A stretch of DNA of 64,000 nucleotides from a virus. Positions 4,802 to 51,249 of the stretch are shown piece after piece. The notes below the pieces were generated by a model. That model saw nothing but the letters and a program-made list of their open reading frames with translations. It ran no database searches and had not been told where the DNA came from. The stretch covers positions 1 to 64,000 of IMG/VR virus record IMGVR_UViG_3300036770_006296, one strand, 5' to 3'. Numbering within the stretch: position 1 is the stretch's first letter; the number at the start of each line of letters is the position of its first letter. A program made the position numbers and the translations under genes.

Positions 4802-4810
4802 GATATATAA
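4802..4810 (+). promoter_or_regulatory. Late-promoter-like GATATATAA
   Basis: The motif starts 26 bases before the ATG of the fibre gene at 4828. It resembles the T4 late -10 box TATAAATA and recurs at the same distance before many genes here. Confidence 0.5.
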
Positions 4811-18362: not shown

Positions 18363-20365
18363 TGGCTGGAATAAAATATTTAACGGACATATACGAAAAA
18401 AAAGGAAAGTCCTTTATTGAAAGCCTTTTCAATAAAAATTTAACTGTAACGGAAAATCTAGACGGTCCTTCTTTTTCTTTTGAAAGAGATTTTACTGGCG
18501 ATAACATATCTTTCTATAAAAAGGATCAAGATAATCCTATAACCAAGGTGGATAGGATATTAATGAGATATTACGAAAAGCCCATAAGCTATATAGAATC
18601 TCTATCTCTTGAAATCACAGATCAACTTCCTAAGGGATGGAGATTCGGAATGGTTTACTTTCCTAACAAAAAGCCAGTCAGAATTGAATACGATAGGATA
18701 CCAAAGAATCATCTTGTTTTAACACATGTTGTTGTTAGGGATGAATTTGGTGATATCATTAAAAATTTACAGGATAGGAATGAGCTCGATGAATGGGCGG
18801 ACAAGCTAGGAGTTGAAAGATCACCTATTATATTCCAAGGTAAACTTGATAGGGATCAAAAGATAGCTATAATGGATTTCCTTTCCACCCCATTAGCAGA
18901 TCTTAAAAATAAATTCCAGACCTCTAGTTTTAGTAACTATCTAATTTCAATCTTAAATAAAAAAGTAGAAAGAACAACACTTGGTAAGGATTTACAAGGT
19001 GAGATAGATTCCCTAGTTTTTAGATTCGAGGATGAAGACGGAAAAGAGGAAACTGTTTTAGCAAAAATGGTTGACCCTATTTTTCATGAGATAAACAGAA
19101 GCAGAAAAGTTACTCAAACATCTTATTTTCCTAGTGATGTTTATTCTTTGTGTCTTATAGATGTAATGAATTTTATACTAGAGACAGGAGTAGAAAACTT
19201 TATGGCTGAAGGCAATGATCCAGAGGAAAGATACATCAGTTTTGTTTTTGATGTATTTAAGAAGTTTGTATACGAGGAGGGTGAGAAATATGTAGGTGCA
19301 GATTTTCAAAAACCAGAATACTTGAAAACCGAAGGATTTGAAATAAATAAGGATTTAATAACTGACGAAGAAATTTTAAAGTCTATAGAAGACGACGAAG
19401 TTTATATAGACATTCTACAAATGATCCTTAACTCTTTTAGAAAGCTTAAAAGAAAACCACATGGATTTTTTACAGAGGGGCTAATCCAGCAATTTAATAT
19501 GCTAGTTGAAGATATTGCTAGCTATATAAACGCCAAAAAGAAAGATTTAGTTGAAGAGTCTTTAGGAGTTCCCAGCTTTGTTTGGTTTAAAAAAGTCGGT
19601 AGTAAATTTAATCCGATAATGAGTGACGAGGATGAAATAGACGAACTAGAAGAAATCATAGAAGGTTCTTCTTCTGGAGATGTTCTACCTCTTAATGAAT
19701 CTGAAATCCCAGAGACTATAACTGAAGACGAGAAGAAAGAAGACGCTTCAGAATTTTTCTCATTTAAGGATTTTAAAAAGGTAGTAGCTACACACAAAGA
19801 AAAAAAGAAGATAAAGATATTAAACGAGAATAGCCAGAAGGTAAATATTGTAATAGGTAAATTTCAGCCATTTAACAATGGGCATTTAAAAATGTGTACA
19901 AGATTAAAGAAGGAAAACAATTTACCGGTATTTCTATGTGTAGTACATCCTGGAAGTGAGCCAGGATCTAAATATCCATTCTCTGAGGATTTAATAAAAA
20001 AATCTATAGGTGCTTTAACATCAGAGAACAACAAACTTTTTGCTGGATATGAAATAATTCCGTCCAACCTTTTGGAGGATGCTCTAAATGCAGTAGTAAA
20101 ACATGCTAATCCTGCTTCTATATGTATAGGGGAAAGGGATTTTGAAAATATGATTCTTCAAAGAGAATGGGTAAGAAATAAATATGATTTAGAAGGAGGA
20201 GATATAGAAATATACAAAACACCGCAATGGTCAAATAATAATGATATTAGAACCTATATAAAAGATGGGGATTTCCAGCAATTTAAAAGTAAAGTCCCTA
20301 AATCTGTAGCGGTTCTTTTCAATGAATTTACTAAACAAATAAACGGATCCGAGAAGGATATATAA
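18362..20365 (+). CDS. Ligase-like domain fused to NMNAT-like nucleotidyltransferase
   Basis: 667 residues from the ATG at 18362, which overlaps the previous stop; a TTG 12 bases upstream is less likely. Residues about 25-240 resemble the adenylyltransferase domain of RNA ligases: TENLDGPSFSF at the KxDG position, then GEIDSLVFRF like motif IV and LAKMVDP like motif V. The catalytic Lys is replaced by Asn (about residue 32), so ligase activity is doubtful. The C-terminal domain starts at GKFQPFNNGHL (about 499), the HxGH class of NMN or cytidylyl transferases with Asn for the first His, and has NNDIRTYI at the ISSTxIR position. The middle is acidic linker. Possibly acts in NAD or RNA metabolism; the substrate is unknown. 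Confidence 0.65.
   Translation: MAGIKYLTDIYEKKGKSFIESLFNKNLTVTENLDGPSFSFERDFTGDNISFYKKDQDNPITKVDRILMRYYEKPISYIESLSLEITDQLPKGWRFGMVYFPNKKPVRIEYDRIPKNHLVLTHVVVRDEFGDIIKNLQDRNELDEWADKLGVERSPIIFQGKLDRDQKIAIMDFLSTPLADLKNKFQTSSFSNYLISILNKKVERTTLGKDLQGEIDSLVFRFEDEDGKEETVLAKMVDPIFHEINRSRKVTQTSYFPSDVYSLCLIDVMNFILETGVENFMAEGNDPEERYISFVFDVFKKFVYEEGEKYVGADFQKPEYLKTEGFEINKDLITDEEILKSIEDDEVYIDILQMILNSFRKLKRKPHGFFTEGLIQQFNMLVEDIASYINAKKKDLVEESLGVPSFVWFKKVGSKFNPIMSDEDEIDELEEIIEGSSSGDVLPLNESEIPETITEDEKKEDASEFFSFKDFKKVVATHKEKKKIKILNENSQKVNIVIGKFQPFNNGHLKMCTRLKKENNLPVFLCVVHPGSEPGSKYPFSEDLIKKSIGALTSENNKLFAGYEIIPSNLLEDALNAVVKHANPASICIGERDFENMILQREWVRNKYDLEGGDIEIYKTPQWSNNNDIRTYIKDGDFQQFKSKVPKSVAVLFNEFTKQINGSEKDI
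20357..20365 (+). promoter_or_regulatory. Late-promoter-like GATATATAA before cassette A
   Basis: The element overlaps the end of the preceding gene and starts 26 bases before the ATG at 20383. Confidence 0.5.
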
Positions 20366-20382: not shown

Positions 20383-21243
20383 ATGAAAAGAATATTATCC
20401 TTTAATGACTTTGCAATTTTTGAATATAACACTTTTAACTACACTCCAGGAGATAAGTTAAATGAAGCTATATACCTAGACGAAAGAGAGAAAAGACCAG
20501 TAGACGAAGCGGCACTCAAGAAAATGAAAGCCTGCGTGTTTTTCTTAAACGGATCTTATCCGTTTTTTTCATCAATGCTATCTAGATTGATAATCAGAGA
20601 AAACAGAAATCTTAGATTTAAAACAATGGCAACTGACGGTGTTAGTATACACTATGATCCTGATTTTGTAAATGAGCACAGCGATGCAGAGATAATGTGG
20701 GTAATAGCACATGAGGTTTTACATAATACTCTACTTCACTTCCTAAGATGCCCTAAAGATAAAACTAAAGCGGGTGTATGGAATGTTGCAGCAGATTATG
20801 CACTTAACCAGGTATTAACTCCGATAGACCCAGGAACAATAAACACCGCTAAACCTGAACCTGTATCTAAGGGAGGAGTAGGAAAAATGGTGAAGGGTTC
20901 TTTATATCCAGGATGCGGGCACGTTTCTTACGATCGTGAGTTTGTTAACAGAAGTGCAGAATGGATATACGAAAAACTTTTAGCTAATGGATATGTTCCT
21001 GAGCCAGGTGAAGATACACCACCACCCCCACCACCCCCACCACCTCCACAGGATCCTGTAGTTGGTGATATCATATATGATAAAGATAATGATTCTTATG
21101 GTATAATTAAATCTATAGACGATTCTTCAGGCGAGCTTGAGTATGATCCTATACCTAAAAATAAGGTTAAAGAATACTTACAAAGAAAAGCTAAGGGTGA
21201 GAATATATTGGGAGACGATATAGAAAAAGAATTAGACTTCTAA
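20383..21243 (+). CDS. Cassette A zinc metallopeptidase-like protein (DUF2201 N-terminal type)
   Basis: 286 residues. It starts with the tag-like KRILSFNDFAIFEYN. The catalytic-type motif HEVLHNTLLH is at about residues 110-119, followed by WNVAADYALNQ, the pattern of the metallopeptidase domain (DUF2201 N-terminal) that normally sits with a VWA-like domain. Here the VWA parts are separate downstream genes. A poly-Pro linker (about 209-221) leads to a small C-terminal beta domain (VGDIIYDKDNDSYGII). ATG 20383 is chosen because it begins the tag; another ATG lies 4 bases upstream out of frame. Paralogue at 49247. A terminator-like hairpin sits 164 bases into the gene. Confidence 0.75.
   Translation: MKRILSFNDFAIFEYNTFNYTPGDKLNEAIYLDEREKRPVDEAALKKMKACVFFLNGSYPFFSSMLSRLIIRENRNLRFKTMATDGVSIHYDPDFVNEHSDAEIMWVIAHEVLHNTLLHFLRCPKDKTKAGVWNVAADYALNQVLTPIDPGTINTAKPEPVSKGGVGKMVKGSLYPGCGHVSYDREFVNRSAEWIYEKLLANGYVPEPGEDTPPPPPPPPPPQDPVVGDIIYDKDNDSYGIIKSIDDSSGELEYDPIPKNKVKEYLQRKAKGENILGDDIEKELDF
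20547..20569 (+). terminator. Terminator-like hairpin inside a gene
   Basis: AAACGGAT and ATCCGTTT form an 8-bp stem with a CTT loop, followed directly by a run of T, giving seven T in a row. It lies about 190 bases after the late-promoter-like element, inside the metallopeptidase gene, so it may act as an attenuator or end upstream transcripts. Confidence 0.45.
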
Positions 21244-21256
21244 TTTAATACGTTCT

Positions 21257-22240
21257 ATGAAAGCTAAGATAACTGACGTTAAAATACAAAAACTCCAGGA
21301 AGATGGAGGAGGGGGAGGAGGAAAGGGCCCAAGGAATCCTAAAAATGTAGAAGTTTGGCCAGGAGATGTTAATGATGTACCGGATAGGGACGAAGATGGA
21401 AACATCAAAGGAGATGACGTAGAAGGAGATTTTAAAAGATATTCCGGACCTAAAACAGATCCTGGATATAATCCAGGAGAAGTACTTAGACCTGGAGAAT
21501 TAGGGGATGTTGGAGATGGTGGAAATATAGACCCAGATAAGATAGCTGAGGAATGGGATGATATAACTAGAATAGCAACCACGGGAGGAAGTGCTCAACC
21601 ACCTCCTTCTATAAGAAGAGCTTTAACTAAACTAAAAGAGCCTGTTATTGACTGGAGAGCTGAGTTGGATAAATTTATAGATCAGGCAATATCCAAATCT
21701 AAGTACACATTGCCGGTTAGAAGATTTTTAGGAGCTGGGAAAGCACAGTATGGATATAAGAAATATAAAGAGGATTTTCAAAATATAGTTATTGCTATAG
21801 ATACATCCGGTTCTATTATTGATCCTTTATTAAAACAATTTATTTCAGAGGTCATTAAAATAACCGAAATATACAAACCCGATGAAACGACAATAATATA
21901 TTGTAGCGACAATATAGATAATATAGATACATTCGGTGTGGGTGAAGAGCCAGATTTAAATAAGATAGCATCAACTGGAGGAAACTATGAAGGATTCCAT
22001 CCACCTTTTAAATGGGTACAAAAAAATATGATTGACGAGGGAAAAACACCTTCGGTTTTTATTTATTTTACTGATGGATATGCAGATTTTCCACCACCCG
22101 AATATTATGATATAGAGAATTATTCAGATAGGTGTATTTGGGTACTCATTTCTTTTAATGATGAACCATTTCCTAGACCCGTTCCTTTTGGTGAAAGAAT
22201 AGATATAGTTTTAGCCAATAATAACGTAAAAAGAATTTAA
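21257..22240 (+). CDS. Cassette A VWA-domain protein, first copy
   Basis: 327 residues. The N-terminus MKAKITDVKIQKLQED is followed by a poly-Gly run (residues about 17-22) and an acidic, Pro/Gly-rich low-complexity region to about residue 110. The VWA-like domain follows a conserved block (YTLPVRRFLGAGKAQYGYKK) and carries the MIDAS-type motif DTSGSI at about 182, STGGNYEGF and YFTDGYAD. Such domains bind a metal ion and a protein ligand, usually working with MoxR AAA+ ATPases. LQE/D near the N-terminus could be a processing site. The next gene is a tandem duplicate with nearly the same layout. Confidence 0.75.
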   Translation: MKAKITDVKIQKLQEDGGGGGGKGPRNPKNVEVWPGDVNDVPDRDEDGNIKGDDVEGDFKRYSGPKTDPGYNPGEVLRPGELGDVGDGGNIDPDKIAEEWDDITRIATTGGSAQPPPSIRRALTKLKEPVIDWRAELDKFIDQAISKSKYTLPVRRFLGAGKAQYGYKKYKEDFQNIVIAIDTSGSIIDPLLKQFISEVIKITEIYKPDETTIIYCSDNIDNIDTFGVGEEPDLNKIASTGGNYEGFHPPFKWVQKNMIDEGKTPSVFIYFTDGYADFPPPEYYDIENYSDRCIWVLISFNDEPFPRPVPFGERIDIVLANNNVKRI

Positions 22241-22243
22241 TCT

Positions 22244-23251
22244 ATGAAAGCAAAAATAACAGGCGTAAGAATTCAGCAAATGAAAGAATCCGGTGGTGGT
22301 GGTGGGGGAGGAGACGTAGAGGGGGACGACTTCGGTATCAGAAATCCTGAAAATGTCGACGAGTGGAAAGACGATGTTCCTGATGGGGATACTCCTGAAA
22401 GAGACAAAGATGGTAAAATAAAAGAGGAGGATTCCGAGTTCAAAAGATCTGATAGATCCGGAGGTGGTGGAGGTCCAGCTCCTGACGGATACAATCCTGG
22501 TGAAGTTCTTAGACCTGGGGAGTTGGGGGATCTTGGTGGAGACAGTGGACTTAACGGAGAAGCATTAGCTGAAGAATGGGAAGATATTACTAGAATAGCT
22601 GCAGCAGCGGGTAACGTTCCAGCATCTATAAAAAGAGCACTGACCAAAGTTAAAAGACCTGTTATTGATTGGAAGGCTGAATTAGCTAAGTATATAGACG
22701 AGGCAATAGCTAAATCTAAATATACATTACCAGCTAGAAGATTTTTAGGAGCGGGAAAAGCACAATATGGATATAAGAAATACAAAGAGGATTTCGAAAG
22801 CGTGGTTGTTGCAATAGATACTTCCGGATCTATCACTAGAGAAATGATAGAACAATTTTTAGGGGAGGTTATGAATATAACACAAGCATATACCCCTAAG
22901 AAAACCATTATATTATACTGCGACACCCAAGTTTACGAGCCGGATATATTAGAGCCAGGAGACACTCCTGATTTTAATAAAATAGCCGGAGGTGGTGGAA
23001 CATATTTTTGGCCTCCATTCAAATGGGTAGAAAGAAATTTAATAGAAGAAGGCGAAAAACCGACAGTATTTATATACTTTACTGACGGTGAAGCAAACTT
23101 CCCGTCTGCGGATGACTATGAGATTTCTCAATATGAAAATAGATGTATTTGGGTATTTCTCACATTTAATGATGAACCCTATCCAAACCCGCAACCTTTT
23201 GGCGAGAGAATAGACATAGTACTTGCCAATAAGAATGTAAAAAGAATATAA
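22244..23251 (+). CDS. Cassette A VWA-domain protein, second copy
   Basis: 335 residues, clearly a tandem duplicate of the gene at 21257: same N-terminus (MKAKITGVRIQQMKES), poly-Gly run, acidic linker, RRFLGAGKAQYGYKKYKEDF block and MIDAS-type motif DTSGSI at about residue 192. Differences are concentrated in the MIDAS flank (ITREMIEQF) and in the second metal loop (GGGGTYFWPPF in place of STGGNYEGF), so the two copies may bind different partners. It begins 4 bases after the first copy and is followed by the MoxR gene with its own promoter-like element. Confidence 0.75.
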   Translation: MKAKITGVRIQQMKESGGGGGGGDVEGDDFGIRNPENVDEWKDDVPDGDTPERDKDGKIKEEDSEFKRSDRSGGGGGPAPDGYNPGEVLRPGELGDLGGDSGLNGEALAEEWEDITRIAAAAGNVPASIKRALTKVKRPVIDWKAELAKYIDEAIAKSKYTLPARRFLGAGKAQYGYKKYKEDFESVVVAIDTSGSITREMIEQFLGEVMNITQAYTPKKTIILYCDTQVYEPDILEPGDTPDFNKIAGGGGTYFWPPFKWVERNLIEEGEKPTVFIYFTDGEANFPSADDYEISQYENRCIWVFLTFNDEPYPNPQPFGERIDIVLANKNVKRI

Positions 23252-23257
23252 AAAGTA

Positions 23258-23266
23258 GATATATAA
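23258..23266 (+). promoter_or_regulatory. Late-promoter-like GATATATAA before MoxR gene A
   Basis: The element starts 27 bases before the ATG at 23285, in a 33-base A-rich spacer. Confidence 0.5.
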
Positions 23267-23284
23267 AGAAAATAAAAAAATAAA

Positions 23285-24889
23285 ATGGGCAAAAGAATTT
23301 ATAATTTTAACGAGTTTGTCAATGAATCCTATATGAGTGAGGGATTTTTCTCTGATTTGGGATCGAAAATATCATCATGGGCAAAAAGTTTATATAATGC
23401 AGTTAAGTCAGGATTAGTTAGATTGATATCATCAGGACCTAAGAAAGGAACCCCTAGGGTGGCATTGTTTGACGATAGCAAGAGTGATTCAATCTTAAAT
23501 CAGGTTAACAATTTCTACAAAGGTACTGAATTCTATAATATGAATAACCTTGAGATCCCTGAGACCCTTGAAGAAAGCTTCTTATGGGAAGATGCAGTTC
23601 CTTTAACTTATCCTATAGAAGACGACGTACCAAACTATTCTGAACAGGAGATAAAAGAGACTATTAAAAGAAACATGAGAGATATCTTTAGAATTGCAGA
23701 TGAAATGGAAGCAGCTAAAGAATCTGGAGCATCTGATGACGAGTTAGATGATATTTACAGAGGAATTCTAGATGTTAAACCAATATTCATATACGGAGCT
23801 CCAGGGATTGGTAAAACTCAAATAGTAGCCCAAGTTTGTGACGAATTAGGAAAAGAATTATACGGACATAAACTATCTTTAGTTAACGTAGATGGTGAGA
23901 ACGCAGAGCCTGTTGATTTTGCTGGGGTACCTAGTGTAGTAGATATTGAATCACCAAATGAAGAAAACCCAATTGGAAGAGGTGTTACCAGATCTAATAT
24001 TAATGTTGATATACTCCCTTATGATAACGGAAAAAATCAAAAAGGGGGAATCCTATTCATCGACGAGTTAAACCGTATGCCTAAAGAAGTTATTAAGATA
24101 TTTATGAAACTTGCTCAGTCCAGAAGAATCGGTAACAATTATAAGGTTCCTTCTAGATGGTATATCGTTGCAGCAGGTAACCGAAAAGAAGATGATAGAG
24201 GAAATATCGAAGAATTAGGTACTGCTCTTAGAGACAGATTCGAAGCTGTTAACTTTGTACCAACTATAAAAGGATTTAGAGGATATATCGAGGGAAGCAG
24301 ATACAAAGACGTTGTTCTTCCAGAGCTTCTAGATTTCTTAGAATTCCAGCCAGTATACTTCCATAATTTGGATCCGGCTCTTAAGAAAACAAAATATCCA
24401 ACTCCTAGGGCTTGGGTAGATGCTTCGAACTCTTTAAGAAGAGTTATTAGAGAATTGGAAGCTAAAGGAGTTACAAAGATTCCGGAAGATGTGATAAGAA
24501 AAGAATTCTCTAAAAATGTTGGATATGATGCAACATCAGCTTTCTTGAATTTCTACAAGATTGCTAAAGATATTCCAGTAAAAGATCTTATTCTACCTTA
24601 CACGGATCCCGATAAAGCTCCAGTTCCTGCGGATAAAGGGGATAGACCAGATTATACACACGCTTTATTTGGAGCGGTTATGAGAAAAAGCACAGAGATG
24701 CAATTAACACCTAAAGAGGTTTGTAATTATGCTAAATGGTTAGAAAGAATTGATAAAGAGGAAGAAGGAGCAGCACAGATTACAACTTTCTTTAAGCTTC
24801 ATCCAGAATTGGCAAAAGATCCTGCAATGTACTCTTGCTTAGGACCTTTGGCTGATAAATGGGGAGCTAAAGTTGGACAAGAGTTCTAA
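23285..24889 (+). CDS. Cassette A MoxR-type AAA+ ATPase, tagged
   Basis: 534 residues. Residues 1-15 are the tag (KRIYNFNEFVNES, cut expected after VNE). Then comes a region with GFFSDLG and GPKKGTP shared with its paralogue at 47757. The AAA+ core has Walker A GAPGIGKTQ (about 172), Walker B ILFIDELNR (about 256), sensor AAGNRKE (about 298) and the arginine-finger type RDRFEAVNF (about 317), followed by the MoxR-type helical lid with YPTPRAW. MoxR ATPases remodel client proteins with VWA partners. All catalytic motifs are intact. The tag suggests that it enters the capsid. Confidence 0.85.
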   Translation: MGKRIYNFNEFVNESYMSEGFFSDLGSKISSWAKSLYNAVKSGLVRLISSGPKKGTPRVALFDDSKSDSILNQVNNFYKGTEFYNMNNLEIPETLEESFLWEDAVPLTYPIEDDVPNYSEQEIKETIKRNMRDIFRIADEMEAAKESGASDDELDDIYRGILDVKPIFIYGAPGIGKTQIVAQVCDELGKELYGHKLSLVNVDGENAEPVDFAGVPSVVDIESPNEENPIGRGVTRSNINVDILPYDNGKNQKGGILFIDELNRMPKEVIKIFMKLAQSRRIGNNYKVPSRWYIVAAGNRKEDDRGNIEELGTALRDRFEAVNFVPTIKGFRGYIEGSRYKDVVLPELLDFLEFQPVYFHNLDPALKKTKYPTPRAWVDASNSLRRVIRELEAKGVTKIPEDVIRKEFSKNVGYDATSAFLNFYKIAKDIPVKDLILPYTDPDKAPVPADKGDRPDYTHALFGAVMRKSTEMQLTPKEVCNYAKWLERIDKEEEGAAQITTFFKLHPELAKDPAMYSCLGPLADKWGAKVGQEF

Positions 24890-25162
24890 ATGAAAAAATA
24901 TAGTCAAATAAAGGAGGGTCATACCTATAAGTATGACCTTTCTAATAGTAAGAAACTTCTAGAGGAAGCCATGGAAAAGATAAACATGGTTAAAGAAGAA
25001 TTTTCTAAGCTAGATGATATAGACTTACAAGAACTCGAGGAAGGTTGGAATCTTATAGATAAATACTACGGAAACGTTGTTAGAGGAGAGATATTCAAAA
25101 GAAATAAAAAAAGGTATATCCCAAACACTTCTGCAGTTTTTCCAAGAAAAGGAGATAGTTAA
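24890..25162 (+). CDS. Small hypothetical protein after MoxR gene A
   Basis: 90 residues, starting directly after the MoxR stop with no spacer. The N-terminus MKKYSQIKEG is a short variant of the tag (IKE/G). The middle is a helical, charged segment (SKKLLEEAMEKINMVKEEFSK) and the C-terminus is basic (FKRNKKRYIP). No family recognised. It may be a partner of the MoxR protein, as judged by position only. Confidence 0.5.
   Translation: MKKYSQIKEGHTYKYDLSNSKKLLEEAMEKINMVKEEFSKLDDIDLQELEEGWNLIDKYYGNVVRGEIFKRNKKRYIPNTSAVFPRKGDS
24917..24938 (+). other. Hairpin at start of gene, terminator-like
   Basis: GGTCATAC and GTATGACC form a perfect 8-bp stem with a CTATAA loop, followed by TTTCT. It is 28 bases after the MoxR stop codon, inside the next gene. 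It may end part of the MoxR transcripts; the U tract is short. Confidence 0.35.
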
Positions 25163-25164
25163 CT

Positions 25165-25701
25165 ATGAAACATATAAAATTATTTGAGCATTTTTTAATG
25201 GAAGAGGATGGATTCGGTAGAGACTTCTTTGTTAAAAGGAAGGACGGAAAAGTTTCCAAATACTATTTTAAAATAGAAGGTGAGGAAGAAAATCTAGGAT
25301 TCATTATCAATATAGGCAAACTTTCACGAGGATCTTCTATAGATGAAGCAGAAAATAGCTATTGTGTTGTATCGGCAGAACCAATTAAAATCGGAATACT
25401 TGATGACTATTTAGTAAATGATACAGATTATAAGTCTAGAGAGGATGACGATTTTAATCTCACTAGATCAGAGTTTATGAGATTTTATAGAATCTTAAGT
25501 GAAACAATAAAAGACTATTTACAAAATAATCCTAAGGTCTCTAAAATCTATGACGAGATTACAATGAATCTAAATGTAGATTTCTCTGAGTATAAAGACA
25601 GGGTAGAAACATTAATGGGAGAATGGAGCTACGAAAAATGGAGCGTTCAGGAAGGACCGGATGATGAAACTTTAATTTATACTAGAAGGGACCATGACTA
25701 A
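25165..25701 (+). CDS. Tagged hypothetical protein
   Basis: 178 residues. The N-terminus KHIKLFEHFLMEEDG matches the tag with cut expected after LME. The mature part is a mixed alpha/beta protein with a beta-rich half (DFFVKRKDGKVSKYYFKIEG) and a helical half. No family recognised. It lies 2 bases after the preceding gene and overlaps the next by 8 bases, so it is co-expressed with cassette A. Confidence 0.55.
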   Translation: MKHIKLFEHFLMEEDGFGRDFFVKRKDGKVSKYYFKIEGEEENLGFIINIGKLSRGSSIDEAENSYCVVSAEPIKIGILDDYLVNDTDYKSREDDDFNLTRSEFMRFYRILSETIKDYLQNNPKVSKIYDEITMNLNVDFSEYKDRVETLMGEWSYEKWSVQEGPDDETLIYTRRDHD

Positions 25702-26005
25702 TAATATTCTTTCATATAAAGAATTTATAAATGAATCCAGGATTCCAATAGCTTGGGCTAAGCCATCGGCTACAACAATAAAGGTTCTTTCTTTTATAGG
25801 GGAGAAAGAAAAAGTAACCAAAAGAGAACTCACGGAATTCATAGATAGCATACCGGAAGACGCTTCTGGAAAAAAGCCTTCTATGAACTGGGTTAGGGGT
25901 CAAAAAAAGTATATCAAATATAAAGTCCAAGAGGAGGAAGCAAACTATTTCTCACTAACAACTCTAGGTAAAAGAATCCTAAAAGCATCTAGCGTAAACG
26001 AATAA
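25694..26005 (+). CDS. Tagged small protein, winged-helix-like
   Basis: 103 residues. The tag is nearly ideal: NILSYKEFINES, cut expected after INE. The remaining 88 residues look like a winged-helix fold: TIKVLSFIGEKEKVTKRELTEFID, then a recognition-helix-like MNWVRGQKKYIK, and a wing-like segment ending YFSLTTLGKRILK. If so, it could bind DNA, and the tag would deliver it with the genome. This is inferred from pattern only. Confidence 0.5.
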   Translation: MTNNILSYKEFINESRIPIAWAKPSATTIKVLSFIGEKEKVTKRELTEFIDSIPEDASGKKPSMNWVRGQKKYIKYKVQEEEANYFSLTTLGKRILKASSVNE

Positions 26006-28918: not shown

Positions 28919-30325
28919 ATGATCATAGATATTGAGAATACAGGAAATGGATTATCTGTTTCACATTACACTGAGGAAGGGGAAGTTAATTTATTGAAAA
29001 TTCAGGTACCAAAGCATCTACAATTTGTTTGGCAAAAAACATCGGAGAACGACAAAAGTAAAGATAAGGAATGGAGGTCATGGGACAATTTTCCTGTGAA
29101 GAAAGTCACCACTAGCAAGTTTGACAAATATAGAGTGGTAGAAATATTAGAAGCGATAGATCCCGAAATAACAAAACCACTTTGGGATTACCAAACTCCT
29201 AAAAAATACTTTGTCGATATAGAGGTTGAGATCACTGACAATCGTGCGGATTCTTTAGATACTGAAAATTCTAAGAACCGGGTGCTTTCAATAGGGATGG
29301 CTTCTTCTCACGGAAAGATTCTGGTTATTGGACTCGAAGATATTCCGCAGGATAAAATATTAAAAATAGAAAAAAGGATAAAGGAACACTTTAAGGATCA
29401 GCCAGGAGAATGGACTTTTAATTATAGGAAGTTCGAGACTGAGTTCGATATGCTTTACACTTTCTTCTCTAAGCTAGTTCCTAAAATGCCTTTAATAACT
29501 GGATGGAACTGGTTTGGGTATGACTGGCCTTATCTTATCAATCGAGCAAAAAGATTAGGAATAGATCCAAAGATAGCTTCACCCAGTGGGATTCTCTTAG
29601 GAATGAACCAGATTCCGATGCACATACTAATGGTTGACTACCTGGACATCTATAAGAAATGGGATAGGGTTATAAAAATCAGAGAATCTAACTCATTAGA
29701 CTATGTTGCTAATCAAGCTATAGGGATAAAAAAGATTTCTTATAACGGAACATTAAAAGATTTATATGAATCAGATTTTGAGACATTTATCTTTTATAAC
29801 GCAGTCGACTGTGCTTTAGTTCATTATATAGATAAAAGGCTGGACACGCTTTCAACTTTCTTTAAAATTGCCGAAGTTAGTAGAGTGGAAATAAACAGAG
29901 CCCTATCACCTGTGTGGACCACTGAGGTACTGATGCTAAGAAAATTCCTGGAAAGAAAAAGAGTTATTGTCAACGAGAGAAAAGGAGAATCACATGTAAA
30001 GTTTGAAGGAGCTTATGTTAAGAAGCCAGAAAAAGGATTATATGAATGGATCGCTTGTTTTGACTTTGCCTCACTATATCCTAACACGATGATGCAATGG
30101 GGAATTTCACCAGAGGCTTATATTGGGAAGAATTTAAAAGAAATACCAGAAGGTGCAATTAAAACATCTTCAGGTGCGGTGTTTTACAACAAAGATGGGC
30201 AAGAACCTATACTAAGAGAAATATTAAAAGGACTTTATGCACAAAGGAAAGCTACTAAGAAAAAATATTTTGAGTGTGAAAAGGAAATAGAAAAAATTAA
30301 AAAAGCAATAAAATCAAAATCATAA
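28919..30325 (+). CDS. 43: Family B DNA polymerase, N-terminal part (exonuclease and palm start)
   Basis: 468 residues. All three proofreading motifs are present: VDIEVE (Exo I, about residue 99), GWNWFGYDWP (Exo II, about 197) and YNAVDCALVHYID (Exo III). Polymerase motif A is DFASLYP (Asp about 382). The gene ends after LYAQRKATKKKYFECEKE, the first helix of the fingers (T4 has VFNQRKEHKGYM). Motifs B and C are missing and lie in a separate gene at 46516, about 16 kb away. Together 857 residues (T4 gp43 has 898). The break is at the fingertip, so the two products probably assemble into one enzyme. No intein remnant is visible. Confidence 0.88.
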   Translation: MIIDIENTGNGLSVSHYTEEGEVNLLKIQVPKHLQFVWQKTSENDKSKDKEWRSWDNFPVKKVTTSKFDKYRVVEILEAIDPEITKPLWDYQTPKKYFVDIEVEITDNRADSLDTENSKNRVLSIGMASSHGKILVIGLEDIPQDKILKIEKRIKEHFKDQPGEWTFNYRKFETEFDMLYTFFSKLVPKMPLITGWNWFGYDWPYLINRAKRLGIDPKIASPSGILLGMNQIPMHILMVDYLDIYKKWDRVIKIRESNSLDYVANQAIGIKKISYNGTLKDLYESDFETFIFYNAVDCALVHYIDKRLDTLSTFFKIAEVSRVEINRALSPVWTTEVLMLRKFLERKRVIVNERKGESHVKFEGAYVKKPEKGLYEWIACFDFASLYPNTMMQWGISPEAYIGKNLKEIPEGAIKTSSGAVFYNKDGQEPILREILKGLYAQRKATKKKYFECEKEIEKIKKAIKSKS

Positions 30326-32277: not shown

Positions 32278-34644
32278 ATGGAAGTAATAAAAAGAGATGG
32301 CTCTAGAGAAAGAGTAAAACTGGACAAGATCCTTAGTAGGGTTAAGAAACAGTGTTATGGATTAAATATGGATTATATAGAGCCGATGGAGATAGCCAAA
32401 AAGGTTATTCATGGTCTTTATGACGGAATTACATCTATTGAATTAGATACATTGGCGGCGGAAACAGCTGCAGCACTAACTCCGACACACCCAGATTATT
32501 CTATACTCGCTTCTAGAATTTGTGTTACCTCCTTACATAAAAGAACACCAAAAAGTTTTTCACAGGTTATTGAGCAACTCTATAATTACATTGATCCTAG
32601 AACAGGATTAAAAGCACCTATGATTGCTGATGATGTCTACGAGATCATCATGAATAATTCAAAAGATATAGATTCTCAAATAATAACAGATAGAGATTTA
32701 GAATACGATTATTTTGGATTTAAAACTCTAGAAAAATCATATCTATTAAAAATAGATGGTCTTCCCGCAGAAAGACCGCAGCAAATGTTAATGAGAGTAG
32801 CTATAGGAATTCATAAAAATGATTTGCCCTCCGCTTATAAGACCTATGATTTAATGAGTCAGGGATATTTTACTCACGCGACACCTACATTGTTTAACTC
32901 TGGTACTAGGAGACCTCAACTTTCTTCTTGTTTTTTAGTTTCGATGGATGATGATTCAATCCAAGGGATTTATAAAACACTCTCTGATGTAGCTCAAATT
33001 TCTAAGAATGCGGGAGGTATTGGATTACACATACACAACGTAAGAGGTACAGGAGCTTACATTAGAGGCACTAACGGAACATCTAATGGTATTATTCCGA
33101 TGCTTAAGGTTTTCAATGAGACTGCAAGATACGTTGACCAAGGAGGAGGAAGAAGAAAAGGATCATTTGCTGTTTATCTAGAGCCTTGGCACTGTGACGT
33201 TGAAGATTTTTTAAATCTTAGAAAAAATCACGGTAAGGAAGAAATGAGAGCCCGGGATCTTTTCTTGGCTTTATGGACTCCTGATTTATTTATGGAAAGA
33301 GTAAAAGAAAATGGAGACTGGACATTGTTTTCACCAGATGAGGCACCAGGATTAGACGATGCTTATGGAGAAGAGTTCAATAAGCTTTATACTAAATATG
33401 AAAACGAAGGAAAGGGAAGAAAGACAGTAAAAGCCCAAGACCTTTGGTATAAAATTATTGAAGCACAAATAGAAACAGGAACTCCTTATATTCTTTACAA
33501 GGATTCTGCAAATATTAAATCTAATCAGAAAAATTTAGGAACTATTAAATCTTCCAATCTTTGCACCGAGATCATCGAGTACTCAGATTCAAAAGAAACT
33601 GCAGTTTGTAATTTAGCTTCTATTGCACTGCCTAAATTTATTACCCCTGGTAAGAAACCTAAATACGATCTTAATGCACTTAAAGATATAGCTTACACGG
33701 CTACAATAAATCTTAATAGAGTAATAGACGTTAATTATTATCCTACTAAAGAGACCAAGACTTCTAATATGAAGCACAGACCTATAGGTATAGGCGTACA
33801 GGGATTAGCAGATACTTTTGCTATATTAAAAATACCTTTCGATTCCGAAGAAGCTAAACAATTAGATAGGGATATTTTTGAAGCTATTTATTATGGCGCT
33901 ATGTGTGCATCAGTGGATCTTGCAGAAAAAGAGGGAGCATACCAATCTTTTAAAGGATCTCCTCTATCTAAAGGACTATTCCAGTTTGATTTATGGAATG
34001 AATCTCCAAGCACAAGATGGGATTGGGAAGCTTTAAGAGAAAGAGTAAAAACACACGGAGCTAGAAACTCATTATTGCTTGCCCCGATGCCTACAGCATC
34101 TACAAGTCAAATACTAGGTAACAATGAATGTTTTGAACCATTTACATCTAATATCTACATTAGAAAAACACTATCCGGAGAATTTCCAGTAGTTAACAAG
34201 CACTTAGTTAAAGAGTTAGTCAAACTAGGTATGTGGAGTGAATCACTTAGAGATAAGATAATTATCAATAACGGATCGGTCCAGGACATAAAAGAAATTC
34301 CAGACGAAATTAAGGAAATTTATAAGACTGCTTGGGAAATGAGCCAAAAGGTTATTATAGACCACGCAGCAATAAGAGCACCTTTCATTTGTCAAAGTCA
34401 AAGTATGAACTTATTTGTACAGGACGCAAATTTTGCTAAACTCTCTTCCGCACATTTTTATGGATGGTCTAAAGGATTAAAAACCGGAAGCTATTATATC
34501 AGAACTAAAGCTGCTACAACTGCTATAAAAGGATTAGGGATAGATACTAATAAGCAGGAAGATATAAAATCAGAGGATGAAAATTACAGCGACTTAGTTT
34601 GTAGTATAGATAATCCTGAAGATTGTCAAGCCTGCGGATCATAA
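32278..34644 (+). CDS. nrdA: Ribonucleotide reductase alpha subunit
   Basis: 788 residues. An N-terminal ATP-cone-like region ([17 protein letters not shown]) is followed by the catalytic barrel with [16 protein letters not shown] (active-site Cys), NLCTEI with the second region Cys, and [20 protein letters not shown]. The C-terminus ends DCQACGS, the CxxC pair that exchanges electrons with thioredoxin or glutaredoxin. It reduces ribonucleoside diphosphates with NrdB. Full length for a class Ia enzyme; the ATP cone suggests dATP feedback control. Confidence 0.95.
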
Positions 34645-36614: not shown

Positions 36615-37097
36615 ATGAGAATTCTAAGATTTGTGGATTTTTTAAATGAGTCTGTTTATAACGTAGGAATTCCTCTTTACAGAGGATCTAGCTTCCAACC
36701 GGAAAGAACAATAAAAAGGAATAAGTTTATTGGGGAGCTTCAGGATTTCCTTACTCAAGTTGCTAACGGTACGCTTTCTGAAATCACAGTAATAGCTGAA
36801 ATACCAACACAAGGTAAGAACGCACCACAATATCTAAAAGATATTTATGCTGAAATGGGATACGATCCTAGCAGAGATCAGGAAGATATGTATGACCCAG
36901 AGACTGATGTTTACATGGGAGATAGAAGCAGAACAGCAGATGAACCTTCTAGAAATATATTCGTAGACTCTGAGTTTATTGTTAAAGATGTTGATCAGAC
37001 AAAAGGAGTTATTATTGCAGTTCCTTATTCTTTAAAAAGAAAGAATGTTACTGTAGAATTAACCCCCGATATGATTGACGAGGCTTACGTTAAATAA
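36615..37097 (+). CDS. Tagged hypothetical protein with LYRG motif
   Basis: 160 residues. The tag RILRFVDFLNES is ideal (cut expected after LNE). Just after it is GIPLYRGSSF, which resembles the first Arg motif of ADP-ribosyltransferases; a late EL or SEF segment could give the acidic motif, but no clear STS motif is seen. T4 packages a tagged ADP-ribosyltransferase (Alt) in its head, so this is a tempting but weak analogy. Otherwise the protein is unrecognised. Confidence 0.55.
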   Translation: MRILRFVDFLNESVYNVGIPLYRGSSFQPERTIKRNKFIGELQDFLTQVANGTLSEITVIAEIPTQGKNAPQYLKDIYAEMGYDPSRDQEDMYDPETDVYMGDRSRTADEPSRNIFVDSEFIVKDVDQTKGVIIAVPYSLKRKNVTVELTPDMIDEAYVK

Positions 37098-46515: not shown

Positions 46516-47685
46516 ATGGAAGAAATAGATTACATGTCAATGAGCTTGGAAGAGCTCAATCAAAAACTGCAGGAGTTCCAAAAAAAATCCTCCGATTTTT
46601 ACAATACTGAACAGGGCATTAAACTAACTCTTAATAGTATATACGGAGCGACGGGAAATCAATACTTTGCTCTTTTCAATCCGGACGTAGCAGAGAGTGT
46701 AACTCTACAAGGTCAAGATATATGGAAATTTGCAGAGAAAATAGTTAACAAGTACTTCAATGAGATGTGGCACCTTGACACTGAGCTTCATGAGAAGATG
46801 GGTGTTAGGAACGTAAGAAAGATTACTCTTGATTTTATTATATACGGGGACACTGACTCTAACTATATAAACCTTGGAGCAGTAATGGACTCTTGTGAAT
46901 TTGATTACGATCCTTTTGATTTCGTAAAAAAACTCAACGATTATAGGCTCAAGGACTACATAAAAAAATGTTACGACATCTATTCTAAGAAATGGAATAC
47001 TGAGAACTATCAAGACTTTGAACTGGAAAGTTTATCTTATGCAGGTATATTCTTAGGAAAAAAGAAATACGTACTACACATAGCATGGCAAGATCCTAAT
47101 AAGGATTTATTCCCTAGACTATCTAAAATTAAATCCACAGGTATCGAATTAGCACAGGGAGGTACTGCTCCTTTTGCTAGGGAGAAACTAACATTCCTCC
47201 TTAGACATATCTTTGAAAAGGGTAAGTCATTTGATATAAGGGAATTTGTAAAGATACTGAAGGATATCAAGAATGAATTTAAAGTACAAAGTCCGGATCA
47301 AATATCAATAGGTACTTCAGTTAACAATATAGAAAAGTTCATAGTAAATGATACAAGTAAGTTCGAGGTTGCTAAGGGATGTCCAATGCACGTTAGAGCT
47401 GCTGGATATCATAACTATATCTTGAATAATTCTAAACATAAAGCAAAGTACAGCTTAATAAGATCCTCTGAGAAGATAAAATACTATTACGTTAAAGTTA
47501 ACAACGAAAGGGAGAATAACGTATTCGGATATCTTAATGGTTCTTATCCCTACGAGTTTGCTCCTCCTGTTGATTTCGACGAGCAGTTTAATCGAGTTAT
47601 CCTTGATCCTATAAATAGATTCATTGAAGCTATGGGATATACACCGCTTTCTCCTAATCTTTTACTAGTTAGGGCTCTTTTTTAA
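46516..47685 (+). CDS. 43: Family B DNA polymerase, C-terminal part (fingers to thumb)
   Basis: 389 residues. It starts with a helix (MSLEELNQKLQEFQKKSSD) matching the second finger helix of T4 gp43, then motif B KLTLNSIYGATGN (about residue 36) and motif C YGDTDSNY (about 110), followed by palm and thumb (KKKYVLHIAW). It lacks exonuclease and motif A, which are in the gene at 28919. Each half has motifs the other lacks, so both are needed for an active enzyme. Neither half shows decay. The C-terminus ends LLLVRALF, possibly a clamp contact. Confidence 0.88.
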   Translation: MEEIDYMSMSLEELNQKLQEFQKKSSDFYNTEQGIKLTLNSIYGATGNQYFALFNPDVAESVTLQGQDIWKFAEKIVNKYFNEMWHLDTELHEKMGVRNVRKITLDFIIYGDTDSNYINLGAVMDSCEFDYDPFDFVKKLNDYRLKDYIKKCYDIYSKKWNTENYQDFELESLSYAGIFLGKKKYVLHIAWQDPNKDLFPRLSKIKSTGIELAQGGTAPFAREKLTFLLRHIFEKGKSFDIREFVKILKDIKNEFKVQSPDQISIGTSVNNIEKFIVNDTSKFEVAKGCPMHVRAAGYHNYILNNSKHKAKYSLIRSSEKIKYYYVKVNNERENNVFGYLNGSYPYEFAPPVDFDEQFNRVILDPINRFIEAMGYTPLSPNLLLVRALF

Positions 47686-47728: not shown

Positions 47729-47737
47729 GATATATAA
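47729..47737 (+). promoter_or_regulatory. Late-promoter-like GATATATAA before cassette B
   Basis: It starts 28 bases before the ATG at 47757. A T7G run (47708-47715) lies 13 bases upstream of it, which could serve as a -35-like region. Confidence 0.5.
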
Positions 47738-47756: not shown

Positions 47757-49250
47757 ATGTCTAAAAGAATAAAAAATTTCTCAGATTTTGTTAATGAATC
47801 ATACAGTCCTTCAAAATTAGACGAAGGGTTTCTTTCAACTATAAAGGATTATGCAAAAAGATTTTTTGGTTGGACTGGTAAATTTTTAAAGAGTCTAGCA
47901 CAGGGATTAATAGAGCCTATTCCTTATGGTCCTAAGAAAGGACTTCCTACTATTATGCTTTTCTTACCTGAAAATGGGTCTATCTACAAACAGATGACAG
48001 AATTTGAAATGGGTGTTAATCCTATAAAAGAAGCAAGGATACCTTTGGAATATACAGGAGAAGATCAGAGTGTAAGAAACATCTCTGCTGATCAATTAAA
48101 GCAAGATGTAATAAGATTATATAGAAGTAAAGAAAGAGGTGGTAGGGCTAAGCCTATCTTTATTTACGGAGCTCCTGGTATTGGTAAAACAGAAATAGTC
48201 GGACAAGCAGCTGATGAATTGGGTGTTCCGGTAATGAAGCTAGATTTACAATTTATGAATCCGGAGGATTTCTTAGGTATTCCTAGTAGACACGATATAG
48301 AGCCAGTTCAGGTAGAAGGTGGAAAATTGATTAGTTCAGGTAAAGGATTTACAAGATCTAATCCACCAATTTTACTTCCAACTGACAACGGTAATGAAGA
48401 TAGAGGAGGTATAATATTTATGGATGAGATGAACAGAGCTAATAAAGCAGTTCTTAACTCCATTATGCAATTTGTACAAAAAGGAGAAATAGGTCCTTAT
48501 AAATTACCAGATAGATGGGTGATTGTAGCAGCTGGTAACAGACCAGAAGAAGCTGAAGGTGTTGCTGATTTCGACTTTGCATTAGCAGACCGATTCACTA
48601 TTAAAAACTACGTCCCTACAATCGAGGGATATGCTTCTTGGGCTGATAAGAACGAAAAGATCCTTCCAGAGTTAGTTACTTTCTTAACGTTTAACCAAGA
48701 TTACTTCCATAATCTAGATGCCGATAAAAAATCTCTTAACTATCCTACGCCTAGATCTTGGACCGACGGAGCATTAATACTCCACGACGAGATCCAATAT
48801 AAAGGAGTAGATTCTTGGAGAGATATTTCTAGGCAAGATATATTAGACATCTTCTACGATCAAGTTGGTCCCGAAGCAGCTGGTAAATTTGTAGCTTACT
48901 TAGACATTTTAAGAAAAGTTACGGATTCTGATATGGAAGATATGATCAACAATCCTATGTCTGCTAAAATGGTACCAGAGGCACAATCCACAAAGAGCGT
49001 ACTTTATGGACTTATAGAAATGGTGATGAAGAGAGTTAAATCGTATGACACACAGAAATTCTATAACGTTATGGAGTATTTCAATAGATACAACGAGCTG
49101 GAACCGCTAAGCTGGCTATATAAAGATATCTTATCTAAATATCCTCAGTTCAAATTTGGAGGAAGTTCTAACACTCCGGAGGATGAATTAAAACACAAAG
49201 CAGCCTTAATGATTACAAAAGGAGCTAAAGATAAAGGTCTACAAGGATGA
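47757..49250 (+). CDS. Cassette B MoxR-type AAA+ ATPase, tagged
   Basis: 497 residues, a paralogue of the gene at 23285. The tag is KRIKNFSDFVNES (cut expected after VNE); then come DEGFLSTIKD and GPKKGLPTIMLF, shared with the paralogue. AAA+ motifs: Walker A GAPGIGKTE (about 138), Walker B IIFMDEMNR (about 219), sensor AAGNRPEEA, arginine finger ADRFTIKNY, and lid YPTPRSW. All are intact. It opens cassette B and overlaps the metallopeptidase gene by 4 bases (ATGA). Confidence 0.85.
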   Translation: MSKRIKNFSDFVNESYSPSKLDEGFLSTIKDYAKRFFGWTGKFLKSLAQGLIEPIPYGPKKGLPTIMLFLPENGSIYKQMTEFEMGVNPIKEARIPLEYTGEDQSVRNISADQLKQDVIRLYRSKERGGRAKPIFIYGAPGIGKTEIVGQAADELGVPVMKLDLQFMNPEDFLGIPSRHDIEPVQVEGGKLISSGKGFTRSNPPILLPTDNGNEDRGGIIFMDEMNRANKAVLNSIMQFVQKGEIGPYKLPDRWVIVAAGNRPEEAEGVADFDFALADRFTIKNYVPTIEGYASWADKNEKILPELVTFLTFNQDYFHNLDADKKSLNYPTPRSWTDGALILHDEIQYKGVDSWRDISRQDILDIFYDQVGPEAAGKFVAYLDILRKVTDSDMEDMINNPMSAKMVPEAQSTKSVLYGLIEMVMKRVKSYDTQKFYNVMEYFNRYNELEPLSWLYKDILSKYPQFKFGGSSNTPEDELKHKAALMITKGAKDKGLQG

Positions 49251-50308
49251 GAAAGCTAAACGAAAACAAATATAAAACCGGAAAAGTAATAACATCTTTC
49301 TCTAATTATGTTAGATTCATAAACGAATCATCCTTATATGATCCGGATGAGGTCAACAAAAAAATAAGAAGGGTTATACTTTGGTTAAATATAAACCAGG
49401 GATTTTATGCTGAGCTTCTTAGCCATGTAAATATATTTGGATCTAGCGATCTTAATCCTAAAACAATGTGTACAAACGGTAGGGATATAATATTCCATCC
49501 TGAATTTGTTATGAGACAATCTGAGCCAGCTTTGAGATTTGTCCTTTGTCATGAAATATTACATTGCATAGGTGATCATATGAATAGGAGAGGAAGCAGA
49601 GATCCTATGGGATGGAACATAGCTTGTGACTATGCAATAAATCCATTACTCAAGGATGAAGCCGGATTCGAATTTCCCGTAGATGAAAACGGTAATAGAG
49701 AAGGATTATATGATTCAAGGTTCGAAGGGATGAGGGCAGAAGACATATATGATGCACTAGAAGAATCAGGAGAACTGAAAAAATTAATAGGAGACTCTAA
49801 AGTACAAAAGACTGTAGAGACTACAGGTAAAGTTGAAGATGAGGATAAAGAATTAGCAGACCCTGACGAAGAAATGGTGATACAAAAAGGGGATGACCCA
49901 GGAGAAGAGGGAGAAGATGGAGAACCAGGAGAAGATGGAGAACCAGGAGAAGATGGAGAGCCAGGAGAAGATGGAGAACCAGGAGATCAGCCAGGAGATC
50001 AGCCAGGAGATCAACCAGGAGATCAACCAGGAGATCAACCAGGAGATCAACCAGGAGACCAGCCAGGAGATCAACCAGGAGATCAACCAGGAGATCAACC
50101 AGGAGATCAACCAGGAGATCAACCAGGAGATCAACCAGGAGATCAACCAGGAGATCAACCAGGAGATCAACCAGGAGATCAACCAGGAGATCAACCGGGT
50201 GGAGATAAAAAGAGTCTTCCAAGAGTTGGCCAGAAGGTAATAACAAAAGACGGAAGGGAAGGAACTATAACTAAGGTTTATCCTAACGGAGATATAGAAA
50301 TTTCTTAA
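49247..50308 (+). CDS. Cassette B zinc metallopeptidase-like protein with PGDQ repeats
   Basis: 353 residues, a paralogue of the gene at 20383. The tag is longer: ITSFSNYVRFINES ends at residue 28. The zinc motif HEILHCIGDH is at about residues 102-111, followed by WNIACDYAINP. From about residue 218 come four GEDGEP units and then about 18 copies of PGDQ (245-317), in place of the poly-Pro linker of the paralogue. The C-terminal small beta domain (VGQKVITKDGREGTITKVY) is kept. The repeat probably acts as a long acidic, flexible spacer. Confidence 0.75.
   Translation: MRKLNENKYKTGKVITSFSNYVRFINESSLYDPDEVNKKIRRVILWLNINQGFYAELLSHVNIFGSSDLNPKTMCTNGRDIIFHPEFVMRQSEPALRFVLCHEILHCIGDHMNRRGSRDPMGWNIACDYAINPLLKDEAGFEFPVDENGNREGLYDSRFEGMRAEDIYDALEESGELKKLIGDSKVQKTVETTGKVEDEDKELADPDEEMVIQKGDDPGEEGEDGEPGEDGEPGEDGEPGEDGEPGDQPGDQPGDQPGDQPGDQPGDQPGDQPGDQPGDQPGDQPGDQPGDQPGDQPGDQPGDQPGDQPGDQPGDQPGGDKKSLPRVGQKVITKDGREGTITKVYPNGDIEIS
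49908..49978 (+). repeat. 18-bp tandem repeat, about four copies
   Basis: GGAGAAGATGGAGAACCA-type units code for GEDGEP within the metallopeptidase linker. Copies differ by single bases (GAACC or GAGCC). Confidence 0.8.
49979..50196 (+). repeat. 12-bp tandem repeat, about 18 copies
   Basis: CCAGGAGATCAA units (a few with CAG or GAC) code for PGDQ. Units are nearly identical in DNA, so recent expansion or slippage is likely, and length may vary between isolates. Confidence 0.9.
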
Positions 50309-50310
50309 TT

Positions 50311-51249
50311 ATGTTTATAAAAAACGGAGATTATTCAGTAGTATCTGACGACAAGAATAAAGAAAATGGAAAACCTGGGGATCAAAGAAAATCTTCTGGA
50401 GGAGAGGCCGAATTTTCAGATACCCCTGAGACAATGACTGACATACCTAAAGTGGGTCAAGAAACTCCTGGTATAAAAACATTCAGAGATTTTGAGGGAC
50501 CACAAGATTCCAAGGAAAAAGCTAAAGAGATAAAACCTAATAAGCCATCTAAAATATTTAAGGGTGATCTTCCAAAAAGAAATTGGCAGGATATAGCTAA
50601 TCAGGCTATGTCTAGAAATAAAGTTAGTGACAAAGCTAAAAGACTAATAAAAGCTTTAAAAACCAGTGAGCCTTTAGTTGATTGGAAGAAAGAGCTTAAA
50701 AAATTCTTTGATAACACTTTTAAATCCGATGAATGGGTTCTTCCTAATAAAAGATTCCTTGCTGGAGGTGACATGATATACGGGAGAAGAAACGTAGGTG
50801 ATGACACTTTAAAAACTATAGTTGCCGCAGTTGATACATCTTCATCTATTTCAAAAGAACAGATAAAGGTATTTATCAACGAAATAATGTATCTCACAAA
50901 AACATTTGATGCTGATAAAACTATAATCATATACTGTAGTGATCATATAGACAATATTGATATAGTTAAAAAGGGAGGATCTCCAGATCTAACAAAGATA
51001 GCTTCAACCGGTGGAAACGCGGAAGGATTTATACCGCCATTTCAGTGGGTAGAAAAAAATAAGATCAAGCCATCCGCATTTATTTATTTAACAGACACAG
51101 GAGGAGAAATGCCAGACCCTAGTAAATATGGTATAAATAAATACAGAAAGAAGGTGCTTTGGTTTATATGTTCTCCTGAAATGTATAATCCACCATCCTT
51201 CGGCAAGATACTTTTTGCCCCTGTGGGATCCATAAAAGTTAAAAGATAG
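50311..51249 (+). CDS. Cassette B VWA-domain protein
   Basis: 312 residues, a paralogue of the two VWA genes of cassette A. It lacks a clear tag and the poly-Gly run, starting MFIKNGDYSVVSDDK with a low-complexity acidic region. It has the shared block WVLPNKRFLAGGDMIYGRR, the MIDAS-type motif DTSSSISKEQ (about 175), STGGNAEGFIPPF and YLTDTGGEMP. It starts 2 bases after the metallopeptidase gene. It probably forms a complex with the MoxR and peptidase proteins of cassette B. Confidence 0.75.
   Translation: MFIKNGDYSVVSDDKNKENGKPGDQRKSSGGEAEFSDTPETMTDIPKVGQETPGIKTFRDFEGPQDSKEKAKEIKPNKPSKIFKGDLPKRNWQDIANQAMSRNKVSDKAKRLIKALKTSEPLVDWKKELKKFFDNTFKSDEWVLPNKRFLAGGDMIYGRRNVGDDTLKTIVAAVDTSSSISKEQIKVFINEIMYLTKTFDADKTIIIYCSDHIDNIDIVKKGGSPDLTKIASTGGNAEGFIPPFQWVEKNKIKPSAFIYLTDTGGEMPDPSKYGINKYRKKVLWFICSPEMYNPPSFGKILFAPVGSIKVKR

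Follow-up and report, generated by a model that had tools for sequence, protein, structure and literature searches.

A MoxR ATPase and a metallopeptidase as predicted head cargo in a clade of giant phages

Why would a phage place what looks like a signal for entry into its own head on an AAA+ ATPase and a peptidase? The question is raised by IMG/VR virus record IMGVR_UViG_3300036770_006296 (G000; 206,617 bases), whose positions 1-64000 form the window analyzed here (64,000 bases). Four plus-strand genes at 20383-24889, which we call cassette A, encode a DUF2201_N-family zinc metallopeptidase (MP), two VWA proteins, and a MoxR-like AAA+ ATPase. An initial annotation, made from the letters of the sequence, had read them as a possible machine that is packaged in the head, delivered with the DNA, and active on host proteins right after entry. 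All four genes that it named are in place, with Pfam and PHROG matches. As judged from tags, processing sites, and an upstream element, the prediction that the cassette is late, head-targeted, protease-processed cargo is well supported, and the later fate of its products is weighed at the end.

Cassette A and its catalytic residues

The genes of cassette A and their main catalytic motifs are as follows.

20383..21243, plus strand: MP, DUF2201_N zinc metallopeptidase, 286 amino acids, with tag, peptidase core, and a C-terminal region with beta strands (PF13203, E = 2.7e-18)
20710..20724, plus strand: HEVLH motif of MP, residues 110-114; HExxH is present in every aligned MP homologue
21257..22240, plus strand: VWA1, DUF2201 VWA-like, 327 amino acids, untagged (PF09967, E = 1.7e-12)
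22244..23251, plus strand: VWA2, DUF2201 VWA-like, 335 amino acids, untagged, MIDAS DTSGS (PF09967, E = 1.1e-18)
23285..24889, plus strand: MoxR-like AAA+ ATPase (MoxR), 534 amino acids (PF07728, E = 1.9e-9; phrog_1297, E = 8.5e-46)
23795..23818, plus strand: Walker A motif GAPGIGKT of MoxR, from the alignment

The DUF2201 assignments pass their curated cutoffs, with 67 versus 23.2 bits for MP (PF13203) and 48 and 67.9 versus 26.4 bits for the two VWA proteins (PF09967). For MoxR, the Pfam family AAA_5 passes its cutoff, and AAA_3 and bpMoxR matched below theirs. A BLASTN search of the cassette against named phages gave no match. A second, diverged set at 47757-51249 (cassette B) has the order MoxR, MP, VWA. 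In both cassettes and in the relatives that were read, a VWA partner gene stands beside MoxR, which agrees with the earlier treatment of MoxR, VWA, and peptidase as one module.

We aligned the cassette genes with their counterparts in related virus contigs. HExxH is kept in MP, and VWA keeps DTSGS, or DTSSS in cassette B of G000. The ATPase motifs GAPGIGKT, FIDE, AAGN, and ALRDRF are conserved in cassette A and have equivalents in cassette B, and the Walker A/B, sensor, and arginine residues of AAA+ proteins are present in MoxR. Loss of the HExxH, MIDAS, or Walker residues in close relatives, which the initial annotation had said would speak against its proposal, was looked for in these alignments, and the residues are conserved.

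The structure models were of modest confidence (predicted local distance difference test [pLDDT] about 63), and their fold matches are used as supporting evidence only. The N-terminal ~113 residues of MoxR, which bear the tag, are disordered in the model, whose top fold match is NorQ in complex with the NorD VWA domain (7.7e-8). NorQ-NorD likewise joins a MoxR AAA+ protein to a VWA protein, but it inserts metal into nitric oxide reductase, has no peptidase, and is nonviral. The MP model (pLDDT 63) weakly resembles selecase and thermolysin-type peptidases (best E, 0.011). Selecase/minigluzincin (M. jannaschii MJ1213) gave the best sequence and fold matches to MP, at E values of 0.05 and 0.011; it is a stand-alone archaeal peptidase, and its match to MP is below significance.

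Predicted head tags, candidate processing sites, and a late-promoter-like element

The initial annotation had assigned a head tag to the peptidase and the ATPase, and the tag proved to be far above chance in G000. The pattern [IVLM]xx[FY]xx[FY]x0-4E occurs at 36 of 295 open reading frame (ORF) N termini versus 2 internal stretches, and 200 shuffles gave a mean of 4.1 and a maximum of 10. With a position weight matrix, we counted 57 tagged proteins versus 1.4 expected, a list in which a few short or minus-strand entries look spurious. Examples among the N termini are KRIYNFNEFVNE/S, where the slash marks the cleavage position, and KHIKLFENF. In the T4 capsid targeting sequence (CTS), residues 4 and 7 matter for targeting and residues 8 and 10 for processing (PMC9026906). 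The N terminus of T4 IPIII is MKTYQEFIAE/A, and the exact spacing [FY]xx[FY][ILVM]xE was found at 13 N termini versus 1.3 expected. Both MoxR proteins and the cassette B MP have this T4-like spacing; in the cassette A MP, the aromatic pair (F7 and F10) is present and the linker to the site is longer. In these residues and their spacing, the geometry of the putative tag is that of the T4 CTS.

Next to the tags we found candidate processing sites and copies of the element GATATATA.

20357..20364, plus strand: GATATATA before MP, 26 nucleotides (nt) upstream of the ATG (motif scan)
20383..20466, plus strand: predicted MP propeptide, with the tag MKRILSFNDFAIFEY... and ending in LNE/A (residue 28; conserved site)
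23258..23265, plus strand: GATATATA before the cassette A MoxR, 27 nt upstream of the ATG (motif scan)
23285..23341, plus strand: MoxR tag MGKRIYNFNEFVNE/S and a second site, MSE/G (residue 19; conserved site)
23564..23578, plus strand: third candidate MoxR site, LEE/S (residue 97), ahead of the folded AAA core; a comparable site is present in most homologues
47729..47736, plus strand: GATATATA before the cassette B MoxR, 28 nt upstream (motif scan)

T4-type prohead proteases cleave after Glu (PMC5694885). Downstream of the tag, the motif [ILMV]xE/[AGS], a form typical of these proteases, occurs in 21 of 36 tagged proteins; among untagged proteins, 41 of 256 have it (Fisher test, 1.7e-7). The MP site, LNE/A (INE/A in G006), is kept in 6 of 6 cassette A sequences, with a tag-to-site linker that varies. 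All 14 MoxR sequences, as far out as the 462-kb phage LR756500 and a Prevotella Lak phage, have Glu/Gly followed by a hydrophobic residue, and in the G008 MoxR the tag site itself is joined directly to the following helix. Most homologues have a counterpart of the third MoxR site, at about residues 90-125, where the region modeled as disordered ends. Unlike a scaffold protein that undergoes degradation, the folded core of this clade's ATPases holds at most one further site, and the ATPases should therefore survive the prohead protease.

Searches for gp21 and gp23 gave no match in G000, a record that starts in tail-fiber genes and is without a head module. The related contig G003 carries cassette A with a MoxR 82% identical to that of G000, and the start of the contig encodes a protein that joins a Peptidase_S77 domain (E = 2.9e-12) to a coiled-coil scaffold. 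The contig also encodes a gp23-type major capsid protein (1.9e-37), whose N-terminal part holds SLNE/SAGAYN; this is a likely maturation site and has the same form as the putative cargo sites. Several of the genes that follow the capsid gene are tagged. An S77-family match in G008 (L033) is a short separate ORF of 137 amino acids, and we did not count it toward a prohead protease. Among named phages, the nearest capsid proteins come from LR756500, Lak phages, PAU, and phages of Tenacibaculum, Flavobacterium, and Chryseobacterium, and a Bacteroidota host is therefore likely.

The element GATATATA has 49 copies in G000, 32 of them within 60 nt upstream of a same-strand gene (2.1 expected) and nearly all of these at 12-14 or 19-29 nt from the gene start. 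It precedes 16 of 39 tagged genes versus 16 of 256 others (Fisher test, 5.8e-8). Tail-fiber genes and a gene for a peptidoglycan-binding (lysin-like) protein also have it upstream, as does the protease gene in G003; of 11 non-late genes checked, mostly for replication and nucleotide metabolism, none has it. Because of the genes that it marks, we consider GATATATA a candidate late promoter of the clade. The late-promoter-like elements reported earlier for the cassette thus stand in the form of GATATATA before MP and MoxR and not in that of the T4 late box, TATAAATA, which we rejected as a promoter after finding it not enriched (11 versus 12.9 expected).

Both tag and element are spread over the record. 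Copies of GATATATA include those at 4802, 8583, 20357, 23258, 47729, and 164912. The several dozen tagged proteins (about 57) include those at 36615, 42740, 52617, 58015, 64988, and 131895, and two P-loop proteins, one at 132766 and one, nucleotide-kinase-like, at 34623, whose tag follows an internal Met. On the minus strand at 77253-81444, a tandem array encodes at least eight small proteins, most of which start with MTREEFI or similar. A set of about 57 proteins with the predicted tag suggests a very large packaged cargo.

Related pairs, the tagged lineage, and the second cassette

The statement that no described system is of this kind was too strong. A MoxR-vWA pair with a peptidase N-terminal on the vWA protein is known from group 2.2 jumbo phages, where a role in virion assembly with peptidolytic processing has been proposed (Iyer et al. 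2021, PMC7824862). The phAPEC6 pair (gp265/gp264) shares with our cassette its families (phrog_1297 and phrog_1314), adjacent genes, and intact motifs. However, its peptidase and VWA form one chain and neither protein has a tag or an N-terminal extension, whereas in G000 the VWA part is encoded apart from MP, both MP and MoxR bear the tag, and the record has a second cassette. The phAPEC6 MoxR protein, gp265c, is among 62 virion proteins, with 6 peptides and 19% coverage (PMC7247149).

N4 gp24/gp25 and other Schitoviridae homologues also combine a MoxR-like ATPase with a peptidase-VWA protein, which is fused in the Schitoviridae where it was read. N4-type phages are podoviruses, and we know of no such tag in them. 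The N4 genes are core genes of N4-like phages and lie on middle transcripts (PMC4193335); beyond this core and middle status, we found nothing in the literature on the function of the pair. T4 internal proteins and Alt resemble the tagged cassette products in having an N-terminal propeptide (predicted here) of the form aromatic-xx-aromatic-aliphatic-x-E, late-type expression, and a gp21-type protease (here in the relative). T4 cargo consists of small proteins and an ADP-ribosyltransferase, whereas here it would include an AAA+ motor and a peptidase among about 57 tagged proteins. What is already known is the ATPase-VWA-peptidase pair; what is new is the tag, the MP/VWA split, and the second tagged copy, and no description of the pair marked as head cargo was found in the literature.

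With tblastn, we found relatives of MoxR in 650 phage records and relatives of VWA in 282. Ten named phages were also searched; both genes are present in five of them and neither in four. Both are absent from PAU, PTm1, pT24, and MA9V-1, which are of the same capsid lineage, and in Flavobacterium phage MaF61 the ATPase match was marginal and phrog_1314 gave none. PHROG family 1314 is labeled "HNH endonuclease," a label common on GenBank records; its members here are DUF2201 peptidase-VWA proteins, and the label looks wrong.

The initial annotation had set the split of peptidase and VWA against the usual single chain. In the clade, as in both cassettes of G000, MP and VWA are indeed encoded by separate ORFs, and they are fused in phAPEC6 and in LR756500, the nearest named relative. 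A candidate MP-VWA fusion in G006/G007/G009 (a shared open frame of 612) was rejected when reading of the ORFs showed separate genes. Because the fused protein is tagged in LR756500 (MKYIKSYENFIFEN) and untagged in LR756501 and LR756502, the tag looks like a lineage feature that was added to an older module, with the splitting leaving it on the peptidase half.

Cassette B consists of three genes.

47757..49250, plus strand: MoxR-like ATPase, 497 amino acids, tagged (FSDFVNE/S, LDE/G; phrog_1297, E = 4.6e-52)
49247..50308, plus strand: metallopeptidase, 353 amino acids, tagged (YVRFINE/S; PF13203, E = 1.8e-24)
50311..51249, plus strand: VWA, 312 amino acids, untagged (PF09967, E = 8.1e-14)

Its peptidase (49247-50308) has a long PGDQ repeat array ahead of the C-terminal region. 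In contig G003 (L031:9932-10372), cassette B is deleted, and a remnant joins the MoxR tag and N-terminal region to the VWA end; because only this fused remnant is left, cassette B is dispensable there.

In cassette A, VWA1 is an extra copy found in this genome only. Other clade members have a single VWA, and the tandem pair is therefore a genome-specific duplication. The single VWA is the orthologue of VWA2 (80-84% identity in the three closest contigs, 72% in L021), and VWA1 and VWA2 are 63% identical to each other. VWA1 (21257-22240) has the stretch IDNIDxxxxGxxPDLxKIASTGGNxEGF in common with the cassette B VWA and not with VWA2, hinting at recombination between the cassettes.

Downstream of cassette A lie three further ORFs.

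24890..25162, plus strand: small ORF, 90 amino acids, syntenic in relatives, no family, outside the machine
25165..25701, plus strand: tagged ORF, 178 amino acids (MKHIKLFEHFLMEE), likely another head cargo (tag scans; syntenic in relatives)
25694..26005, plus strand: tagged ORF, 103 amino acids (YKEFINE/S), just beyond the interval of the finding (tag scans)

The first two fall within the interval that the initial annotation had drawn but are outside the machine. Elsewhere in the window, a family B DNA polymerase is encoded in two genes 16 kb apart, at 28919-30325 and 46516-47685, whose products cover about positions 111-497 and 493-840 of the phrog_262 profile.

A proposed route into the next host and its alternatives

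We propose that a MoxR-class AAA+ ATPase, a gluzincin-type peptidase, and the VWA cofactor(s) would be synthesized late and that T4-type CTSs would draw MoxR and MP to the prohead core. There, a gp21-type prohead protease would strip the tags; the ATPase might lose its whole disordered region of ~95 residues. The processed proteins would stay in the head, and VWA would be carried in by binding the ATPase or be supplied otherwise. They would most likely leave with the DNA and join VWA in the new cell, where the assembly would work on target proteins as an ATP-driven protein-remodeling or peptidase machine. Targeting of MoxR and MP to the prohead is highly probable and their presence in the mature virion is fairly likely; action after ejection falls slightly on the doubtful side. 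We consider the whole sequence of events, from late expression to an ejected ATP-driven machine, an even call. The steps up to prohead recruitment rest on sequence. Packaging, survival in the mature head, ejection, and a target we infer, and these later steps would follow the precedent of T4, which packages and delivers CTS fusion proteins (PMC9026906). A more specific version seems somewhat unlikely: that two paralogous ATP-driven protease machines, delivered by their tags, belong to a virion cargo of several dozen tagged proteins, come together in the cytoplasm once ejected, and there unfold and cleave host proteins, perhaps those of defense, before any phage gene expression.

Several observations weigh against this proposal. 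The VWA proteins have no recognizable tag in either cassette, and they may or may not enter the head. At about 2.3 occurrences per 500 amino acids proteome-wide, the short site motif is permissive, and with no head module in G000, the protease and tags are linked via the relative G003. The peptidase-VWA protein gp264 is not in the phAPEC6 virion list, where contamination is possible because the list also has replication proteins (PMC7247149). The homologues in phAPEC6, two huge phages, and N4 are untagged, and the N4 pair is middle expressed, so the core function does not need packaging. This last point, the homologues in hundreds of phages (untagged where read outside the lineage), and the untagged VWA proteins would suit an ordinary intracellular chaperone-peptidase pair that is not packaged and whose N-terminal motif has another role. 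We consider such a pair improbable, given the tag geometry, the coupled protease sites, the late element, the protease-bearing relative, and the detection of MoxR in phAPEC6 virions. A mixed case, in which packaging is limited to MoxR and MP, VWA is left behind in the producing cell, and the pair, once injected, uses newly made or host VWA, would account for tagged MoxR and MP beside untagged VWA in both cassettes. It would also fit the tagged MP-VWA fusion of LR756500, from which splitting would have freed VWA of the tag. However, MoxR ATPases normally need a VWA partner (NorQ-NorD, RavA-ViaA), and NorQ-NorD is the top fold match. Piggyback entry of VWA is also plausible, because the virion RNA polymerase subunits of SPN3US enter the prohead only when assembled (PMC5694885), and the mixed case is quite improbable.

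The tag could instead serve assembly. Once it had brought MoxR and MP to the prohead core, they would remodel or trim head proteins there before DNA packaging, while ATP is available, and any copies in the virion would be spent leftovers. An AAA+ motor requires ATP, which is available at the prohead stage and not in a DNA-filled head. The late expression suggested by GATATATA fits such a factor, T4 core proteins are likewise recruited to the prohead, and virion assembly with peptidolytic processing is the role proposed for the fused jumbo-phage pair (Iyer et al. 2021, PMC7824862). However, both genes are absent from PAU, PTm1, pT24, and MA9V-1, and cassette B is lost in G003; the machine is therefore unnecessary for that head type, although it may act there as a helper. 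An S77 prohead protease is already present in G003, and the N4 homologues are middle genes. Taken together, these points make an assembly factor rather unlikely.

Delivery into the cell would make the proposed machine an injected, AAA+ protease-like effector, of a kind for which we found no description in the literature. The MoxR-peptidase-VWA pair is present in hundreds of phage records, and the tagged lineage ties it to the head and makes its role testable. Furthermore, the tag and GATATATA together make it possible to list, from sequence, which proteins of this uncultured clade of giant phages are predicted head cargo.

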